A stretch of 55,875 bases of DNA, from the NCBI GenBank assembly GCA_009885845.1, contig VFJW01000012.1, forward strand, positions 1-55,875, read 5' to 3'. The stretch is from Geobacter sp. (GTDB lineage Bacteria; Desulfobacterota; Desulfuromonadia; Geobacterales; Pseudopelobacteraceae). The notes below the pieces were generated by a model. It worked only from the letters and a program-made list of their open reading frames with translations. It searched no databases and was not told where the DNA came from. A program made the position numbers and the translations under genes. This document shows positions 1 to 9,527 of the stretch, piece after piece. Within the stretch, counting starts at the first letter, position 1; the number at the start of each line of letters is the position of its first letter.

Positions 1-1496
1 ACGGTACGCCCTATACTTTCACCGTTAGCGCCACCAATGCTGTCGGTACAGGTGCTGCGTCAGCCGCGTCCAACAGCGTAACTCCAACTGCTCCGCTTAC
101 TCCGCAAACCATCGGAGCGATCACCTTTACTCCTGCTACGTTGGCAGCCGGTGGCACCACTACCGTTTCAGCTACCGCGACATCTGCTCTTCCGGTGACA
201 TTCACCAGCACAACGCCTGCCATCTGTACAGTCGTCGGCACCACGGTCACCGGCGTTTCAAGCGGTGCCTGTACCATTGCTGTCGATCAGGCCGGTAATG
301 GTGAATACAGCCCTGCTGCCCAGGTCACCAGCAACCAGACAGTCACGACGACACCGCAAACCATCGGAGCAATCACCTTTACTCCTGCTACTTTGACAAC
401 CGGTGGCACCACTACCGTTTCAGCTACTGCCGCATCTGCTCTTCCGGTGACATTCACCAGTTTAACAACCGGAGTCTGTACAGTCGTCGGCACCATAGTC
501 ACCGGCGTTGCCGCAGGCACCTGTACCATTGCTGCCGATCAGGCCGGTAACGGTACATTCAGCCCTGCTATCCAGGTCACCAGCAATCAGACAGTCACGG
601 CTGCGTTAACTGCTCCCGCCGCACCTAGCACAGTCACCGCCGTTGCCGGGAACGGCCAGGCCACCGTCAGCTTTACGCTTCCGATCAGCGACGGCGGCAG
701 TCCGATCATCCAATACAGCGTGATATCGACTCCCGGAGGATTCAATGTCAGCGGCAGTGTCAGCCCGCTTACAGTAACCGGACTAACCAACAGCACCACT
801 TATACCTTTGCCGCGTACGCTACCAACATTGTGGGCACAAGTGCGGCATCTTTTGCTTCCAACAGTGTAACACCAACCATCCCTGCCACTATCCCCGGCG
901 CACCCACATCAGTCACCGCCGTTGCAGGCAACGGCCAGGCCACCGTCAACTTTACGCCTCCTATCAGTGACGGCGGCAGCCCGATCATCCAGTACGGCGT
1001 AATATCGACTCCCGGAGGATTTAATGTCACTGGCAACAGTCCGATCATAGTTACCGGGCTTGCCAACGGCACCTCCTATACCTTTACCGCATACGCAACA
1101 AACGCTATCGGTACCAGCCTGCCATCGGCAGCCTCCAACAGTGTGACGCCGACTAATCCTGCCACTGCTCCCGGAGCGCCTACCGCAGTCACCGCCGTTG
1201 CCGGCAACGCACAGGCGACCGCCAGCTTTACCGCTCCGGTCAGTGACGGCGGCAGTCCTATCACCGGCTACACCGTAACATCCAACCCTGCAGGCGGAGT
1301 GGACAGTAACACCGGAACAACCGGTTTGAGCCATGTCATTACCGGGCTTTCAAACGGTACGCCCTATACTTTCACCGTTAGCGCCACCAATGCAGTCGGT
1401 ACAGGTGCTGCGTCAGCCGCGTCCAACAGCGTAACTCCAACTGCTCCGCTTACTCCGCAAACCATCGGAACGATCACCTTTACTCCTGCTACGTTG
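1..1496 (+). repeat. Near-identical internal coding repeat in the FN3/Ig protein
   Basis: Bases 1-143 recur at 1354-1496 with only two mismatches, an in-frame offset of 1353 bp (451 codons). Further Ig-like units at about 360-590, 1460-1690 and 1720-1950 are also highly similar at DNA level. The low synonymous divergence points to recent duplication or gene conversion between modules. Confidence 0.85.
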
Positions 1497-3959
1497 ACAG
1501 CCGGTGGCACCACTACCGTTTCAGCTACTGCCACATCCGCTCTTCCGGTGACATTCACCAGTTTAACAACCGGAGTCTGTACAGTCGTCGGCACAACCGT
1601 GACCGGCGTTTCAAGCGGTACCTGTACGATTGCTGCCGATCAGGGCGGCAATGGTGCATTCAGCCCTTCTCCTCAGGTCACCGGCAATCAGACAGTCACG
1701 ACGGCACCGCAAACCATCGGAGCGATCACCTTTACTCCTGCTACTTTGACAACCGGTGGCACCACTACCGTTTCCGCTACTGCCACATCTGCTCTTCCGG
1801 TGACATTCACCAGTTTAACAACCGGAGTCTGTACAGTCGTCGGCACAACCGTGACCGGCGTTTCAAGCGGTACCTGTACGATCGCTGCCGATCAGGGCGG
1901 TAATGGTGCTTTCAGCCCTGCTGCCCAGGTAACAGCAAACCAGACGGTCACGGCTGCGCTAACTGCTCCGGGCACACCTACCGCAGTCACCGCAGTTGCC
2001 GGAAACGGGCAGGCAACTGTCAGCTTCACAGCTCCGGTCAGTGACGGCGGCAGTCCAATCACCCAGTACGGGGTAATATCGACTCCCGGAGGATTCAATG
2101 TCACTGGCAACAGTCCGATCATAGTTACCGGGCTTGCCAACGGCACCGCCTACACTTTTACCGTTACCGCCGCTAATGCAATCGGCACTAGTACCGCATC
2201 CGCAGCATCCAACAGTGTAACGCCGACAGCACCACTTTCCTCGCAGACGATCAGCTTCGGCGCAGCTCCTGCTCTTACGTATGGCGGCGCTTTCGGTACG
2301 GTCTCTGCCTCTGCAACTTCTACTTTGCCGGTCACCTACAGCAGTACAACACCGACCATCTGTTCGATCACCGGCGCAAGCGTGACCCCGATTCTGGCAG
2401 GAACTTGTACCATCGCGGCTAATCAGGCAGGAGATACCAACTTTGCTCCCGCAACTCAGGTGACTCAGAACATCACGGTGGCCAAAGCCACCCCGATCAT
2501 CACCTGGGCTAACCCTGCTGCGATCACCTACGGAACTGCGCTTTCAGGGACACAACTGAATGCGACTGCCAGCGTTACCGGAACGTTTGCTTATACCCCG
2601 GCAAGCGGAACGTTATCTGCCGGAACACAGACCCTGTCGGTTACCTTCACTCCAACTGATGCAATCAACTACAACAACGCTTCCGGTTCGGCGACCATCT
2701 CGGTTAATCAGTCCGCACCGAGCATTACCACCTGGCCAACCGCTTCGGCTATTATCTACGGACAGACTCTTACCGCTTCAACACTGAGCGGCGGTGTTTC
2801 TTTGACACCGGGTACATTCGCCTTTACGACTCCTTCAACTGCTCCAGCCGCAGGAACGGCTCCACAGGGGGTAACTTTCACCCCGACTGATGCGGTTAAC
2901 TACAGCACCGCTACCAATACCATCAGCGTAACGGTCAACCCGGCGCCAACCGTTCCCGGCGCACCCACTTCTGCAACTGCAGTTGCTGGAGACGGCCAGG
3001 CCACCGTCAGCTTTACGGCTCCTGTCAGTGACGGTGGTAGCCCCATCACCGGCTACACCGTAATATCAGCCCCTGGCGGAATTACCGCTACCGGCTCCGG
3101 TTCCATAACAGTAAACGGCCTCACTAACGGCACCGCCTATACATTTGCCGCGTACGCTACCAACATTGTGGGTACAAGTGCAGCCTCCGTGGCATCCAAC
3201 AGTGTTACTCCATCCGCACCTCCAGTTATCACAACCGGTACCACTGCAACGGTAACAACCAACGTCTCCGGCCGGAATACTTCAACTCTTGTTCTCAATA
3301 CCCCTGGCGCAACGGTGAACATCCCGGCAGGAACGGCCATGACCGATGCAGCGGCCAATCCGATAACCGGCCCACTTACGTTGACCGCAACCGCTTCGAC
3401 CAGTACTTTATCACTTCCCATTGCGGAAGCTGCGGGACGTACCGCCGACGGCAGATCTCTGAGAGCTATGGGCGGATTTATAGACATCACTATTTCCAGT
3501 GGTTCAGGCACAGTAAAGAGGTTTGGAACCCCGATAATCGTAAATATAGCCTTATCAGCCAGCATGGCCATACCTGGGGTTACGCTCGAATATTTCAGCT
3601 TTGACGGTACAACCTGGAATATGGAGGGTACTGCGACTGTTAAGGCTGATGGAACCATTGATATGCAGATTACCCATCTTTCCGTCTGGGCGGTTGCCAC
3701 GTTCTCAACCGCTCCGACCGGCGATATAAATGGAGATGGAACCGTTACTATTGCCGATGCCCTGAAGGCATTGCAGTTTGCTGTCGGAATTGGATCTCCG
3801 ACATCTGCCGAACTTGCTAATGGCGATGTAGCACCGCTTGTCTATCCTGTCACCCAGACCAACGGGGTCATCAGCGCAACGTCATCACCAAACGGAGTCA
3901 TTGATACGGGAGACGCAATTGTTATTCTTAAAAAATCAATCGGGATTGTTACCTGGTAG
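1..3959 (+). CDS. FN3/Ig-like repeat surface protein with C-terminal dockerin (5' end outside window)
   Basis: The reading frame is open from base 3 of the window, so the gene begins upstream; about 1319 residues are visible. It alternates fibronectin type III modules (GNGQATVSF, SDGGSPI, NGTAYTF, SNSVTP signatures; one partial and five complete) with Ig-like modules (QTIGAITFTPATL to NQTV; five copies, the last divergent) and two MBG-like modules beginning YGTALS and YGQTLT. A unique beta-rich segment of about 170 residues follows. The last 80 residues form a type I dockerin with two calcium-loop motifs, GDINGDGTVTIADALKAL and NGVIDTGDAIVILKK. No enzymatic domain is visible. It is probably an extracellular adhesin or scaffold whose dockerin docks to a cohesin; the next gene may supply one. 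The translation is almost free of charge and rich in Thr, Ala and Ser. Confidence 0.85.
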   Translation, partial: GTPYTFTVSATNAVGTGAASAASNSVTPTAPLTPQTIGAITFTPATLAAGGTTTVSATATSALPVTFTSTTPAICTVVGTTVTGVSSGACTIAVDQAGNGEYSPAAQVTSNQTVTTTPQTIGAITFTPATLTTGGTTTVSATAASALPVTFTSLTTGVCTVVGTIVTGVAAGTCTIAADQAGNGTFSPAIQVTSNQTVTAALTAPAAPSTVTAVAGNGQATVSFTLPISDGGSPIIQYSVISTPGGFNVSGSVSPLTVTGLTNSTTYTFAAYATNIVGTSAASFASNSVTPTIPATIPGAPTSVTAVAGNGQATVNFTPPISDGGSPIIQYGVISTPGGFNVTGNSPIIVTGLANGTSYTFTAYATNAIGTSLPSAASNSVTPTNPATAPGAPTAVTAVAGNAQATASFTAPVSDGGSPITGYTVTSNPAGGVDSNTGTTGLSHVITGLSNGTPYTFTVSATNAVGTGAASAASNSVTPTAPLTPQTIGTITFTPATLTAGGTTTVSATATSALPVTFTSLTTGVCTVVGTTVTGVSSGTCTIAADQGGNGAFSPSPQVTGNQTVTTAPQTIGAITFTPATLTTGGTTTVSATATSALPVTFTSLTTGVCTVVGTTVTGVSSGTCTIAADQGGNGAFSPAAQVTANQTVTAALTAPGTPTAVTAVAGNGQATVSFTAPVSDGGSPITQYGVISTPGGFNVTGNSPIIVTGLANGTAYTFTVTAANAIGTSTASAASNSVTPTAPLSSQTISFGAAPALTYGGAFGTVSASATSTLPVTYSSTTPTICSITGASVTPILAGTCTIAANQAGDTNFAPATQVTQNITVAKATPIITWANPAAITYGTALSGTQLNATASVTGTFAYTPASGTLSAGTQTLSVTFTPTDAINYNNASGSATISVNQSAPSITTWPTASAIIYGQTLTASTLSGGVSLTPGTFAFTTPSTAPAAGTAPQGVTFTPTDAVNYSTATNTISVTVNPAPTVPGAPTSATAVAGDGQATVSFTAPVSDGGSPITGYTVISAPGGITATGSGSITVNGLTNGTAYTFAAYATNIVGTSAASVASNSVTPSAPPVITTGTTATVTTNVSGRNTSTLVLNTPGATVNIPAGTAMTDAAANPITGPLTLTATASTSTLSLPIAEAAGRTADGRSLRAMGGFIDITISSGSGTVKRFGTPIIVNIALSASMAIPGVTLEYFSFDGTTWNMEGTATVKADGTIDMQITHLSVWAVATFSTAPTGDINGDGTVTIADALKALQFAVGIGSPTSAELANGDVAPLVYPVTQTNGVISATSSPNGVIDTGDAIVILKKSIGIVTW

Positions 3960-3981
3960 AATCAATCGGTCAGGAGAACGT

Positions 3982-4476
3982 ATGATAAAAAAAACAGGCT
4001 CACTAGTCTCAAGCGTTATATGTGCCACTGTAATGGTTGTTGTAATGCAAGGTTGCGGCAGCGGCGGGAGCAACGAGACAACTAAAGCGGGAACGGTACG
4101 ACCAAAAACCGTACTGGCAGGTACCATCGGTGTTGCTGTGAATGGTATCAGCCTTACTCTGACTCTTCCTGCGGGTGTTAGCGTAAAAGCGGACTCTACT
4201 TCGGGGGAGGTAAACAGTGGAGTGATTACCATGTTGTCACCCAACGATACCAGCAGTTATTCTACGGCAAAATACACTTCTGCCTCGCGTACGTTAACTA
4301 TAGCAGTGATCAGGGGGGCGGTTCCGTTTTCTCCGGGAGATTTCTTTACCATTACCTGCGATGTAGCTGCCGGAGTTTCTACGCAAAATATGGTGATAAC
4401 CGTAGATAAGGTGTCGGCTCATGACGGATTGGGGGCAGAAATAATCCCAACGCCGACAGCTACGGCAAGCTTATAG
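3982..4476 (+). CDS. Small lipoprotein with a possible cohesin-like domain
   Basis: A 164-residue protein. The open frame extends upstream to 3838, but the ATG at 3982 is preceded by a ribosome site (AGGAGAACGT) and begins with a lipoprotein signal: two Lys, a hydrophobic stretch, then VVVMQGC with the lipobox Cys at residue 25. It should be membrane-anchored. The mature part is a beta-rich domain (LTLTLPAGVSV, then SRTLTIAVI, then GDFFTITCDVAAG, then a closing strand). This strand order resembles the cohesin/carbohydrate-binding fold seen in Geobacter lipoproteins, but the match is by eye only. It starts 22 bp after the dockerin gene and is probably co-transcribed with it. Inference: an anchor for the neighbouring dockerin protein. 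An unrelated beta-sandwich lipoprotein is equally possible. Confidence 0.75.
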   Translation: MIKKTGSLVSSVICATVMVVVMQGCGSGGSNETTKAGTVRPKTVLAGTIGVAVNGISLTLTLPAGVSVKADSTSGEVNSGVITMLSPNDTSSYSTAKYTSASRTLTIAVIRGAVPFSPGDFFTITCDVAAGVSTQNMVITVDKVSAHDGLGAEIIPTPTATASL

Positions 4477-4484
4477 TCACTGTT

Positions 4485-6458
4485 TTATTTCTCCGTCATT
4501 TTAAGCGGCTCTTCATTCAAGCATTCGATAATGGTTGCAGGCTCATCGATAGCGGCCCGTGTAACGGAGTAGATCGTCACGGGCTGTTCTTTTCCTTTTA
4601 CAATAACCCTGCGCAACCCTTCGATTTTCAACCCTTTCAGAGTCCCTGCCTCTGCCGCATTACGCACATGTTCAACAGATGATCCGGTGGCCAGAATATT
4701 GGCATCGAATATTCTGGTGAGTCCTTCTACGCGCGAACCGAGGTTAACGTGATCGCCGATAACCGTATAATCCATCTTCTTCCCCTCGGCACCGATATTG
4801 CCGACAACTACCTCGCCTGAATTAATGCCGATACCACAGGAAAGTTTTGGTTTACCCTCGCTCTCCCATTTTCCGTGCAGATTTTCCAGCACCTGCAGCA
4901 TTTCAGCCGCGCAAAGCATGGCCAGTTCAGCATGATTTTCACGCCGTATCGGAGCATTCCAGAAAACGACAATGGCGTCGCCGATAAATTTATCCAGAGT
5001 CCCTTCCCATTTCAAGATTACATCCGTCATGGCGCCCAGATATTCGTTCAACAGTGCAACGACATCTTCAGGTGAGTTTTTCTCTGAAAAGGTAGTAAAA
5101 CCTTTGACATCAGAGAATAAAACGGTAACTTCGCGTTTTTCACCTCCCAGTTTTGCCATCTCGGGATTGTTAATCAATTCGTTGACCAGCGCCTGGGTTA
5201 CGTAACTCGAGAACATGGCCCTTATTTTTCGTGAATGGCGCTCTTCAAAGGCATAGTTCCAGGCGGTGACCAGGATGAACATACACAGGACCATGTTTAT
5301 CGGGCTGGCCATATTGATCCATAGTCCCTGATCGGCAAAAAGCACAAAGCCGACCAGAGCGACAAATAACATGGCCGCCAGTGCGGTAACGGCACCCCAC
5401 GCAAGTCTTGTACGACTCAGAGCAAACGCCAGCAAAACGCCGACAATACTCTGGAATGCCCCTTCCTGAAGCGGAGTGGCTTTCCGGATAAAATTGTTCT
5501 GGATTATGGATGCAGCAACGGCAGCATGTTTTTCCACCCCCGGAGTGACTGCAGAAAAGGGGGTTACACGCAGGTCATAGAGGCCGATTGCTGTGGCTCC
5601 TATCAAGACGATCCTGTTGTCGATGGCTTCGCGCCCAACCACGCCGTCAATAATATCTGCAATGGAGATGTGCGTGAAGGTTTTGCCGGGGCCATAGTAA
5701 TTAATCGGCATCCTGCTCCAGTGATCAGTCGGTATGAATGTCTTGCCGACCCTGATGCCGCGTGACGCCTGAACGGTCAGTTTTTCCGGGGGGATCCCCA
5801 GAAAGGTGGAGGCACACCGCAATCCCAGTGAGGGGTAAAGGAAGTTGTCGTACCCCAACAGCAGGTGCTCCCAACGTAGAGTTCCGTCGAATTCGTCCGG
5901 AAACATGCTGATGTGTGCCAGGGACATCGCGCTCTGTTTCAGCACCGGCACCGGAATCGTCAATACACCGCCAGACATGATGGGGGGATATGTATTAAAC
6001 AGCGTGGCATCTTCAAAAGACACTATGGCCGAATTTTCAAGAACTGAATCCGAAATCGGTTTAGCCTGTTTTTCAAAATCCAGTGCCATGGGAAGTATAA
6101 CATTGCCAGCATCGCGAATTGCTTTTGCAAGGCGGAGATCATGCGTGTCAGATTCAGGGAAGATAATATCAAACCCGATGACGGCAGCATCAGCCTTGCT
6201 CAGTTTTTCCACCAACTGAGCCATGACATCGCGCCCCCAGGGCCAGCGACCGAACCTGGCCAGACTCTTCTCATCTATGGCGGCAATGACAACGGTTTCT
6301 GGCGGAGTAACCACTCCGCGCAACGTGAAGCGAAAATCGTAGAACTTGGCCTCAATTTGCGTGAGGAGTTTCGCGTTATTGAAAAGAAGAATGCCGAAGA
6401 TCAGGGTGACTGCAAGGCCGATGGCAAAACGGATCATGGCATTACTTATGTTTTTCAT
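4485..6458 (-). CDS. CHASE2-domain class III adenylate/guanylate cyclase
   Basis: A 657-residue membrane sensor. An N-terminal transmembrane helix (about 10-28) leads into an extracytoplasmic CHASE2 domain (about 30-320; VVIAAIDEKSL, GFDIIFPE). Three closely spaced hydrophobic segments (about 335-405) and a class III cyclase domain (about 440-620) follow. The cyclase has the metal aspartates in VLFSDVKGFT and FIGDAIVVFW, a Lys in TLDKFIGD, and MDYTVIGDHVNLGSR with Thr at the second base-specifying position, which favours ATP as substrate. The product would be cAMP or possibly cGMP. The ATG is preceded by GAGGT at 9 nt. The gene converges on the lipoprotein with an 8-bp gap between the ends. 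This architecture is common in Geobacter; its signal is unknown. Confidence 0.88.
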   Translation of the reverse strand: MKNISNAMIRFAIGLAVTLIFGILLFNNAKLLTQIEAKFYDFRFTLRGVVTPPETVVIAAIDEKSLARFGRWPWGRDVMAQLVEKLSKADAAVIGFDIIFPESDTHDLRLAKAIRDAGNVILPMALDFEKQAKPISDSVLENSAIVSFEDATLFNTYPPIMSGGVLTIPVPVLKQSAMSLAHISMFPDEFDGTLRWEHLLLGYDNFLYPSLGLRCASTFLGIPPEKLTVQASRGIRVGKTFIPTDHWSRMPINYYGPGKTFTHISIADIIDGVVGREAIDNRIVLIGATAIGLYDLRVTPFSAVTPGVEKHAAVAASIIQNNFIRKATPLQEGAFQSIVGVLLAFALSRTRLAWGAVTALAAMLFVALVGFVLFADQGLWINMASPINMVLCMFILVTAWNYAFEERHSRKIRAMFSSYVTQALVNELINNPEMAKLGGEKREVTVLFSDVKGFTTFSEKNSPEDVVALLNEYLGAMTDVILKWEGTLDKFIGDAIVVFWNAPIRRENHAELAMLCAAEMLQVLENLHGKWESEGKPKLSCGIGINSGEVVVGNIGAEGKKMDYTVIGDHVNLGSRVEGLTRIFDANILATGSSVEHVRNAAEAGTLKGLKIEGLRRVIVKGKEQPVTIYSVTRAAIDEPATIIECLNEEPLKMTEK

Positions 6459-6720
6459 GACGCAAGACCTCGCTACAGCTTGGTAAATTCTACTTTACTG
6501 CGTTGTGGTTTTATAGCAGGAACAGTTTTGAAATAACACTGGAAACCCTCTTCATTAAAAACAAGCTCGCCTTTCAGAATTAATTTGATGGATTGTTTAT
6601 TCTGGTTGTGTTAGAAAATTTCTCCGATTCAGGGGGAACGGATTTGATTTTTTTGGAAGAGCCGTTTTCCAAGCTGATCTGATACTGATCGCATCACACA
6701 TTACATTGCAAAGAGGCCTT

Positions 6721-7323
6721 ATGAACCACTCCGTTAATTCCATCATTCTGGCAGCATGTCTTATTCTCTCCCCTGCACTGGGCATGGCAGCTGACGAAAC
6801 AACACCTGTGCCGGTCAGTGAAGTGAAAACAGCTGTTCAGGCTGCAGCTCCGGCCGCAGCCAAACCCACAAAGATCGGCTCGATTGATTTAAGCTACGTC
6901 GGAGTTGAATCAGAATTCGGCAAGTCGGCTAAAACACAACTGTCTGAAATGAAGAATAAGCTTCAGGAAAAGGTTCTTGGTGAAGAGAAAAAACTCGACA
7001 CGCTTAAAAAGTCTATAGAGTCGAAGCTGCCCACCTACACTCCGAAACAGCGTGAGGCGAAAACAAAGGAATTCCAGAGTAAAGTTGAGGCGTTTCAGAA
7101 GTTGGCGCGTGAATCAGAAGAAGCGTTCATGAAGGAACAGGGGGACGCGACCGGCAAAATATTCTCCCTGATCGAGAAAGCTGTAATCGACTACGGAAAA
7201 GCCAATAACTTTGCCATCATCGTCAGCAAGAAGGATATTATCTATTCCGACAGCAACAATGAATCTCAGGATCTGACCAGCATAATTCTGAAAGCCGTCA
7301 ACGATGCCTGGAAAAATAAATAG
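6721..7323 (+). CDS. OmpH/Skp-family periplasmic chaperone-like protein
   Basis: A 200-residue secreted protein. A TTG lies in frame at 6706, but the ATG at 6721 has AAGAGG just upstream and gives a clean signal peptide (hydrophobic core IILAACLILSPALG, cleavage likely after GMAA). An Ala/Pro-rich linker follows, then the OmpH/Skp pattern: IGSIDLSYV, a long charged coiled coil (about 75-150), and a C-terminal NFAIIVSKKDIIYSD strand region. Skp relatives chaperone unfolded outer-membrane proteins in the periplasm. It stands alone here rather than next to bamA/lpxD, so it may be a paralogue with a more specific client. The 262-bp gap with the divergent cyclase must carry both promoters; no strong promoter could be assigned. 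Confidence 0.75.
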   Translation: MNHSVNSIILAACLILSPALGMAADETTPVPVSEVKTAVQAAAPAAAKPTKIGSIDLSYVGVESEFGKSAKTQLSEMKNKLQEKVLGEEKKLDTLKKSIESKLPTYTPKQREAKTKEFQSKVEAFQKLARESEEAFMKEQGDATGKIFSLIEKAVIDYGKANNFAIIVSKKDIIYSDSNNESQDLTSIILKAVNDAWKNK

Positions 7324-7324
7324 T

Positions 7325-8857
7325 TCAAAATAAACTCTCCCCGGTCATTTCCTGCGGCTGCGCCAGTCCCAGCATCTTCAGCATGGTCGGCGCCACATCG
7401 GCAAGCCGCCCACCTTCGCGCAGAACGGCACCCCGGCGTTTGTCATCCACCACCACAAACCAGACCGGGTTGGTAGTATGAGCAGTGAACGGCTCGCCGT
7501 TCTCATCCTGCATCTGTTCGGCATTCCCATGATCGGCGGTGATCAGTACCGCTCCCCCCAGATCCAGAATTTTTGCAACAACCCGTCCCGCACAGGCATC
7601 AACTGTTTCAACCGCCTTGATTGCTGCAGCTTCAACGCCGGTATGTCCGACCATATCGCAGTTGGCAAAATTGAGGATGATGACGTCGTAGAGATCCTGA
7701 TCCAGTAGTCTGAGAAGCCTGTCCGTCACCTGACCGGCACTCATCTCCGGTTTCAGGTCGTAGGTGGCAACCTCCTTCGGGGAAGGGATCAGGGCGCGAT
7801 CTTCGCCGGGAAAAGGGATCTCCACCCCTCCGTTGAAGAAGAAAGTCACGTGGGCGTACTTCTCGGTTTCGGCGATACGCAACTGTTTCAGTCCGGCATC
7901 GGCCAGCACCCCTCCGAAAATATTGGTCAACTCCGTGGAGCCGAACGCGATCGGGAGGCCGAATGTTGCGTCGTATTCGGTCAGGCAGACATAGTCAGCA
8001 AGCTTTGGCCGGTCACGCCGTGCAAACCCGTCAAAATCGTCTAGGGCAAGCGCCCGGGTGATCTCGCGGGCCCGGTCGGAACGGAAATTGAAAAATATGA
8101 AGCCGTCACCGTCCTGCAGCTGGCCGACCGGTGCACCCTGCTCACAGATGACCGCAGGGACGACAAATTCGTCGTATATTTTTGCTGCGTAACTCTGCTC
8201 GATAGCATCCTTCGAAGAGACACACAGTTCTCCCAGACCATGCACTACGGCATTGTAGGCTTTTTCAACGCGGTCCCAGCGGGTATCACGATCCATGGCG
8301 TAGTAGCGCCCCATGACCGTGGCGATTGTACCGACACCGATCCGCGCAATCTCCGCTTCCAGCTCTTCCAGATACCCGGCTCCGCTCTGCGGCGGCGTAT
8401 CACGGCCGTCAAGCAGGCAGTGAATGTACACATCCGCCACACCTTCGCGTCTGGCCAGTTCCAGCAAGGCATACAGGTGAGTATTGTGGGAATGAACTCC
8501 GCCGTCGGAGAGAAGACCGGCAAGATGCAGCCTCCCTCCCGACGCCTTGACTCTGGCGATGCACTCAAGCAGGGTCGGATTAGTGAAAAAGTCCCCGTCA
8601 AGGATAGACTTTGTGACGCGGGTCAGTTCCTGATAGACAATCCGGCCCGCACCGAGATTAAGGTGCCCGACTTCAGAGTTGCCCATCTGCCCGTCAGGCA
8701 GGCCGACCGCCATGCCGGAACAGTTGATTGCAACGTGCGGATATTCGTTCAAATATTTCGCCAGATGAGGTGTGTTTGCCAGGGCAACGGCGTTGTGGAC
8801 AGGATTGGGATTAATCCCCCAGCCATCTAGTATCATAAGTACAAGCGGGTTTTTCAT
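7325..8857 (-). CDS. gpmI: 2,3-bisphosphoglycerate-independent phosphoglycerate mutase
   Basis: A 510-residue glycolytic enzyme interconverting 3- and 2-phosphoglycerate with two Mn ions. The open frame extends further upstream, but the ATG at 8857 has AAGGGGAG 7-8 nt before it and begins with the family start [14 protein letters not shown]. Metal and catalytic motifs are visible: [14 protein letters not shown] with the phosphorylated Ser, [30 protein letters not shown] and [11 protein letters not shown]. Length is normal for the family. It normally follows rlmH; here a 211-bp gap carrying a repeat separates them. It ends one base from the convergent OmpH-like gene. Confidence 0.97.
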
Positions 8858-8898
8858 GTGCACTCCCCTTTGAATCAACCTAGAAAAAGCACTTGAAA

Positions 8899-9012
8899 CA
8901 CTGAGAACACGGAGTAAAATCCGAGGGTTATAAACAAAAAACTGTTTTTTTGATTCGCCCAAAAGGGGAATCTTGGTTTTGCTTTAAGTCCTTTATTTCT
9001 CTGTGTTCTCGC
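8899..9012. repeat. Imperfect inverted repeat between gpmI and rlmH
   Basis: GAGAACACGGAGTAAAAT (8903-8920) is matched on the opposite strand by TTTATTTCTCTGTGTTCTC (8992-9010), with about 70 bp between the arms. A third, partial CTCTGTGTTAT lies at about 9040. It looks like a dispersed intergenic element of the REP/MITE kind rather than a simple terminator, because the arms are far apart. Its copy number in the genome cannot be seen here. Confidence 0.5.
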
Positions 9013-9068
9013 GTAAATGCGCCTACTTCTGGCTGTGCCTCTGTGTTATTGAACTGCCGTTTTTAGGA

Positions 9069-9527
9069 TTAATGATGATACGGCTCGCCATTTAGTATCG
9101 TAAACGCACGGTATATCTGCTCCAACAGGAAGGCTCGCACCATTTGATGCGTGAAGGTCATTTTCGACAAAGCCATCAGTCTGCCCCGACGACGGAACTC
9201 TTCGGAGAAACCGTAGGCGCCGCCGACAACAAAGATCAGTTCACCGGTGCCGCTGTCGCGCTGTTTCTCTACAAAAGCTGCCAGTCCGGGGGAGTCAAGC
9301 TGTTCACCCCGTTCGTCCATCAAAACCAGCGTTGCGCCGGGCGGGATCTGCTTCTCCAACCGTTCGCACTCACGGCGGCGCATCTCCTCGGCTTCTGCCC
9401 CTTTCTCGTCACGAATATCTACAAGCTCGAGCGGAGAGTAGCGCCGGATGCGGCCGGCGTACTCGTCGATGGCATCTTTGACCCACGGGTCACGACTTTT
9501 GCCGATCCAGAGTACTTTCAGTTTCAT
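9069..9527 (-). CDS. rlmH: 23S rRNA (pseudouridine1915-N3)-methyltransferase RlmH
   Basis: A 152-residue SPOUT methyltransferase that methylates pseudouridine 1915 in helix 69 of 23S rRNA. Family hallmarks are present: an N-terminal KLKVLWIGK strand, LMDERGEQLDSP, the knot region FVVGGAYGFS, and the C-terminal LSKMTFTHQMVRAFLLEQIYRA ending in GEPYHH. Length matches the family (about 155). It normally sits directly after rsfS, but here 9.5 kb of accessory genes intervene, so it may now depend on a different promoter. Confidence 0.97.
   Translation of the reverse strand: MKLKVLWIGKSRDPWVKDAIDEYAGRIRRYSPLELVDIRDEKGAEAEEMRRRECERLEKQIPPGATLVLMDERGEQLDSPGLAAFVEKQRDSGTGELIFVVGGAYGFSEEFRRRGRLMALSKMTFTHQMVRAFLLEQIYRAFTILNGEPYHH

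Follow-up and report, generated by a model that had tools for sequence, protein, structure and literature searches.

The locus raises the question of whether the small lipoprotein encoded directly behind a giant FN3/Ig-repeat protein could hold that protein at the cell envelope by a cohesin-dockerin bond. The stretch of DNA analyzed here (the window) is an entire contig of 55,875 bases (G000:C52) from a draft genome of 179 contigs. It opens inside the giant gene, and thus the start of this open reading frame (ORF) is missing. The part present carries fn3 and Ig-like repeats according to Pfam (fn3 in five stretches, E 4.2e-50) and ends in two calcium loops (Table 1). A sequence-only reading of this DNA had described an FN3/Ig protein ending in a two-loop dockerin, with a lipoprotein gene starting 22 bp further on, and both descriptions hold. 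The lipoprotein starts at its own ATG with a signal peptide that ends in QGC. In a scan of positions 3700-4700, no terminator-like site falls in the gap between the two genes, and the single site found (4322) is at chance level.

Table 1. Coordinates in the window of the dockerin protein, the lipoprotein gene and their parts
Feature	Position	Strand	Remarks
Giant FN3/Ig-repeat protein with C-terminal dockerin	3..3959	+	ORF of 1318 aa, open 5' end
Dockerin module, 81 aa	3714..3956	+	82-83% identity to the closest relative found (L044/L080)
Calcium loop 1, canonical EF-hand-like	3723..3758	+	D, N, D, T, T, D at positions 1, 3, 5, 7, 9, 12
Loop 2 with long insertion	3825..3914	+	First and last Asp kept
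Shine-Dalgarno-like AGGAGA of the lipoprotein gene	3972..3977	+	Sequence
Cohesin-fold lipoprotein gene (fold predicted)	3982..4476	+	164 aa; ATG 3982, 22 bp past the upstream stop codon
Cys25, presumed site of lipidation (signal-peptide end)	4054..4056	+	Invariant in 31/31 (alignment A1, from which six fetched sequences without a recognized lipobox had been excluded beforehand)
Cohesin-fold domain (predicted), residues 34-164	4081..4473	+	VIA-align range, Z up to 11.2

The C-terminal module has the layout of a dockerin. Pfam Dockerin_1 stays below threshold with the last 245 residues of the ORF (E 0.0018, 18.8 bits) and reaches 22.7 bits, against a cut-off of 22.9, with the last 85. Among 26 dockerin tails, 13 match Dockerin (PF00404) at E <=0.1, and solved dockerins match these tails weakly (best 5m2o_B, E 0.015). 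Loop 1 reads D-I-N-G-D-G-T-V-T-I-A-D. The insertion in loop 2 is read as a beta-hairpin with two strands (residues 42-47 and 53-57) in an AlphaFold2 model of the counterpart from the relative L080. This model has three helices and a block pLDDT of 96-97 over its first 40 residues, and together with the sequence it gives the two EF-hand-like calcium loops, each followed by a helix, by which a dockerin is defined. Across alignment A3, which joins the window dockerin to 25 relatives and was built from lipoprotein-adjacent dockerins, none of the 26 sequences deviates at Asp12 of loop 1 or at Asp1 or Asp12 of loop 2. Ligand-type residues occupy positions 1, 3, 5 and 12 of loop 1 in 17 of these 26 sequences, and the full set is absent in nine.

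The predicted fold of the lipoprotein

An AlphaFold2 model of the lipoprotein, based on 17 sequences (the window and 16 relatives from the named-genome loci described below), is an all-beta domain with a pTM of 0.68 and block pLDDT values of 75-95 from residue 51 on. The top 11 Foldseek matches in the PDB are all cohesin entries (best E 2.6e-4). After re-alignment of 997 Foldseek chains with VIA-align, 49 of the best 50 are cohesins (Z 11.2 to 7.3), a count that includes 3kcp, 4fl4 and 2o4e, which we take to be cohesins though their titles are silent. These matches cover residues 34-164 of the lipoprotein or nearly so, and the top one (6kgc_A, Z 11.2) aligns at 2.7 A over 116 residues. Modeling a relative of 67% identity from an overlapping sequence set again gave cohesin matches. 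The predicted structure is that of a cohesin beta-sandwich, and we regard a cohesin fold of the lipoprotein as well supported by these models.

The sequence-only reading had noted a cohesin-like strand pattern in this protein and had named an unrelated fold as the result that would speak against it; the structure prediction came out the opposite way. The pattern is right at the level of the predicted fold, though sequence profiles do not show it. The Pfam cohesin family (PF00963) matches none of 31 lipoproteins (the window and 30 relatives, alignment A1) at E up to 1, and gives no match in the own-genome paralogues L128 and L129 or in the long lipoproteins L081, L083 and L091, scanned whole. 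An NCBIfam scan of the 31 lipoproteins gives no cohesin and no family name, and a PDB profile search gives no cohesin, most of its matches starting in the signal-peptide part. With hhalign, the lipoprotein family matches a mainly secretin-type cohesin alignment at 17.6% probability (E 0.0014, one comparison) over the C-terminal half only, against 0.1% for an FN3 control, and we consider this profile-profile evidence for a cohesin relationship weakly suggestive. Given the lack of a PF00963 match, we file the lipoprotein as cohesin-fold or cohesin-like and not as a member of that family.

The loci fetched for A1 were mainly those of the short lipoprotein matches and not the whole set of matches, and the alignment is made up without long lipoproteins. 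Seven of the 37 fetched sequences were excluded from it, six without a recognized lipobox and one without a start. Six of the 31 A1 lipoproteins match NF058595, the NCBIfam lipo-invert putative C-terminal anchoring domain (best E 3.6e-4). The long lipoproteins L081, L090 and L091 (open frames of 410-614 aa) are encoded directly after dockerin genes and have the cohesin-like domain at the C-terminus only.

Pairing of dockerin and lipoprotein genes

The sequence-only reading had suggested a check of whether the pair is conserved, and conservation is what we find. A profile search with the window's type of dockerin gave 160 matches, of which 150 were listed (a few with an internal stop codon). 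For 82 of these 150, in 39 genomes of the same order, a cohesin-like domain lies within 1.5 kb downstream on the same strand, at a gap of no more than 250 nt in 65 of the 82. Without the 13 listed dockerins that belong to A3, the count is 69 of 137. Conversely, a dockerin lies upstream of 84 of 103 cohesin-like domains (39 genomes), where the 103 are the rows down to E 1.2e-8, two of them with an internal stop; weaker rows, which include many matches to the signal peptide, were not counted. The same test applied upstream or on the opposite strand gave a single case each. We therefore consider that the idea of chance neighbors is already refuted by 82 of 150 against one in each control; nothing was found in its favor, and it retains practically no probability.

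The single opposite-strand case is the fifth dockerin of the window's own genome (C92), with a cohesin-like lipoprotein about 1 kb away. The other four of the five dockerins of this type in that genome are directly followed by a lipoprotein. Of the 150 listed dockerins, 68 lack any lipoprotein domain at a distance of up to 1.5 kb, and in genomes G005, G011, G022, G065 and G073 none of the dockerins is paired. In L087 and L089, a large open frame follows the dockerin gene in place of the lipoprotein, and in L089 this frame has a di-haem cytochrome c peroxidase domain (Pfam).

Searches of named genomes gave a similar picture. Starting from the dockerin alone, a lipoprotein adjoins in 16 of 22 loci of the Geobacter group (Geobacteraceae and kin, three of the 22 being titled merely Desulfuromonadales or Deltaproteobacteria) against 0 of 16 others. 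From these named loci we take the order of the genomes counted above to be Geobacterales. The pairs occur, for example, in Geomonas sp. Red32 (L081) and Geomesophilobacter sediminis Red875 (L086 and L093). L080 and L082, two of the paired loci, also belong to the query alignment (A4), and excluding both the count is 14 of 20. A seventeenth locus (L084) was paired on inspection by eye, and in L097 the frame continues past the dockerin match. Queried with the lipoprotein (P0001), 69 of 98 genomes, the window's own included, have matches at E up to 1. Among the 37 fetched short-lipoprotein loci, a simple motif test over 800 bases found a dockerin tail upstream in 26, and L064 and L055 look like two further cases.

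Across 40 pairs, dockerin and lipoprotein distances correlate (r 0.43, a value reached in 0 of 5000 permutations). Dockerin and lipoprotein also have the same nearest neighbor in 11 of 40 pairs, two of the 11 being one near-identical pair (L065, L074), as against a permutation mean of 1.0 and a maximum of 7 in 2000. This agreement may come from shared ancestry, which the permutation test cannot separate from co-evolution, and we thus do not take it as proof of co-evolution. In a phylum-wide draw of 118 genomes, five match the lipoprotein family at E 1e-6, and four of these are of the same order. The fifth match covers positions 1-48 only, which is the signal-peptide part, and therefore no clear member was found outside the order at this sensitivity in these 118 genomes. 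One scan of viral contigs gave no relative.

A proposed surface anchor

The two modules, their order and the conservation of the pair are established here, and the cohesin fold by prediction. We consider it likely, with a probability of about 0.72, that the lipoprotein is a single-cohesin membrane anchor that holds the adhesin via a cohesin-dockerin bond, and the findings support the anchor interpretation of the sequence-only reading. The small gene would yield a single-cohesin lipoprotein of the outer membrane, or at least of the envelope, cognate to the upstream dockerin. The giant repeat protein would be exported, with its C-terminal dockerin folded around calcium and plugged into the lipoprotein's cohesin face and with its adhesin-like repeats projecting from the cell. 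We infer that the two modules bind each other, that this depends on calcium, that anchor and dockerin are cognate one to one and that the lipoprotein faces outward.

The cargo domains vary among the five dockerin proteins of the window's genome (FN3, Ig, MBG, NHL and List_Bact repeats) and the dockerin is common to all, and the simplest reading is thus that the lipoprotein holds the dockerin. Further support for an anchor is that in other genomes this type of lipoprotein also follows proteins that have Pfam cohesins and a dockerin of the window's type. The remark of the sequence-only reading that carbohydrate enzymes are not visible stands in so far as none of the five dockerin proteins has a glycoside hydrolase catalytic domain, three of the five (C52, C89, C92) being cut by contig ends.

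A prediction of the complex, which had also been proposed, was obtained in part. In a model of the dockerin and lipoprotein of L080 as a fusion (one stop codon read through), both parts are folded, and the pTM of 0.47 means that their relative position cannot be trusted, so that confident docking was not reached. The test was weakened by unpaired and partly misaligned rows, by a network for single chains and by the lack of a non-cognate control. In the fusion alignment (A6), many rows that hold a lipoprotein alone have their N-terminal part aligned to dockerin columns, which may partly explain the poor pTM. A fold search with the fusion model gave cohesins, with no dockerin row among the matches listed. 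Three further complex alignments (A7, A9 and A10) were dropped with many lipoprotein rows placed on the dockerin; another (A8) was cleaner but shallow and was not used.

If the cohesin fold were incidental, the lipoprotein would be a beta-sandwich subunit with the repeat region or a glycan as its ligand, and the dockerin would have a different partner. The fusion model without confident docking and the lack of a cohesin profile match speak for this alternative; against it, the partners vary (FN3, MBG, NHL, List_Bact) while the dockerin is common to them, and gene order and strand are kept. We regard this alternative as quite improbable.

Another alternative comes from a cohesin in a secretin. 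The window's genome encodes a secretin that matches TPR and has a Pfam cohesin at its C-terminus (L040:5126-7621, cohesin E 2.5e-11), for which the best NCBIfam match is GspD, below the model cut-off. Two ORFs with a pilin-type N-methylation motif follow it. A match to PF00963 is present in 57 of 58 genomes, for 53 of them in an ORF of 774-930 aa, and secretin and cohesin matches share contig and open-frame length in at least 15 genomes. Since the secretin cohesin is present in the own genome and widespread, the lipoprotein could instead be an export partner, that is, a periplasmic cohesin-fold pilot or chaperone that brings the dockerin tail to a cohesin-bearing outer-membrane secretin, with anchoring secondary or absent. 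We think this unlikely, given that the cohesin ORF of 774-930 aa is also present in genomes for which the search for the window's dockerin type came back empty (G006, G061, G064, G067 and G069).

The proposed anchor would work like the single-cohesin anchors of cellulosomes. OlpA and OlpC of Clostridium thermocellum are cell-surface anchoring single-cohesin scaffoldins of cellulosomes, and their cohesins (3ul4, 4dh2) are among the VIA-align matches. In both systems one cohesin fixed to the cell surface (here as proposed) is able to hold one dockerin protein. In OlpA and OlpC the anchor is of the Gram-positive surface and the cargo cellulosomal, whereas here we find a lipobox cysteine, a presumed Gram-negative envelope, adhesin-like cargo and a cohesin unrecognized by Pfam. 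The non-cellulosomal cohesins of Archaeoglobus fulgidus (2xdh) and Clostridium perfringens (2jh2, 2vo8, 2w1n) are alike in predicted fold and in occurring outside cellulosomes, with sequence identities of 11-13% in the VIA-align alignments. Unlike in these proteins, nothing but the cohesin domain follows the lipobox in the short form, and its gene forms a pair with that of a dockerin protein. The present pair differs from known systems in the lipobox anchor, the family of cohesins unrecognized by Pfam, the interrupted loop 2 of the dockerin and the gene pairing.

The closest setting, as far as the parts of the literature consulted go, is that of the ANME archaea and their bacterial partners. 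ANME archaea have cohesin and dockerin proteins, including scaffoldin-like ones (PMC9012536), and their sulfate-reducing partners have cohesin/dockerin proteins and an adhesin with adjacent cohesin/dockerin domains (PMC10553843). As here, these are cohesin/dockerin proteins in anaerobes that transfer electrons outward. They were identified with existing domain libraries, and the consulted parts of the two papers describe no lipoprotein anchor family or such gene pairing (PMC9012536, PMC10553843). More generally, the lipoprotein and its pairing with a dockerin are not described in the consulted parts of the literature searched (including PMC9012536, PMC10553843 and PMC12484212).

The proposal names a likely job for a lipoprotein family to which neither Pfam nor NCBIfam gives a name, and a partner list is at hand, given that 84 of 103 members have their predicted ligand just upstream. 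It suggests that the Gram-negative Geobacter group may hold large surface proteins in a lipoprotein socket, which would bear on attachment and biofilm and, less certainly, on contact-dependent electron transfer. Paired in this way, the modules are candidates for plug-and-socket parts as well.

Larger assemblies in relatives

In a few relatives, the gene pair looks like part of larger, cellulosome-style assemblies, which involve a compact second type of dockerin (dockerin a) in addition to the window's type (dockerin b). An uncultured Geobacteraceae (L083, CAIMXI010000471.1) has a two-tier cellulosome-like cluster on one strand of positions 1-9414. An S8 subtilase with dockerin a is followed by a scaffoldin-like protein, a lipoprotein with the cohesin-like domain at its C-terminus, and another dockerin-a protein. 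The scaffoldin-like ORF (2503-6219, 1238 aa) has two Pfam cohesins and a C-terminal dockerin b. The first three genes occur in the same order in L146, where an RCC1-repeat protein replaces the subtilase and one scaffoldin cohesin was found. This cohesin scores 52.3 bits in the first 250 residues and 49.3 bits at the same place in another scan, and a Pfam scan of the whole 1177-aa protein lists none. In G026:C6, a cluster of about 50 kb (L154, L155 and L156; 76001-131000) has a cohesin-dockerin b protein and then a cohesin-like lipoprotein (L149/L156), beside seven dockerin-a genes on the other strand. An ORF for a 180-aa cohesin-like lipoprotein follows a dockerin-a gene at L155:3299-3838.

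At E 1e-5, dockerin a was found in 11 of 58 genomes and is strong in five, with 35 rows in G008, 10 each in G026 and G002, four in G004 and one in G007 (some weak rows included). The same search found none in the window's genome. Seven further dockerin-a proteins include M4 and C13 peptidases, a metallophosphoesterase and propellers; at E 1e-5 no glycoside hydrolase catalytic family is listed for them, and one has a chitobiase C-terminal accessory domain. Which dockerin would bind which cohesin in these clusters we infer from architecture. The cellulosome-type interaction proposed by the sequence-only reading applies to the window's genome as an arrangement of one anchor and one cargo only, and the two-tier version sits in other genomes.

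Taken further, the Geobacter group could have a general non-cellulosomal cohesin-dockerin system for surface assembly with an anchor class of its own, a broader scheme that we put forward as doubtful. In most species, the Pfam-invisible lipoprotein cohesin would hold adhesins by their type b dockerins. A few species would have type b on scaffoldins, the ordinary cohesins of which would collect as many as tens of type a proteins, S8, M4 and C13 peptidases included, as an extracellular complex on the outer membrane, and the secretin cohesin would serve as a loading gate that recognizes dockerins during export. A scaffoldin with several cohesins was not found in the window's genome, which has four PF00963 matches, one per ORF. 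Three proteins of 413-456 aa (L040:14184-15554, L041:5012-6271 and L042:291-1532) combine a Pfam cohesin at the N-terminus with a single EF-hand-like loop close to the C-terminus, and they possibly pair with themselves.
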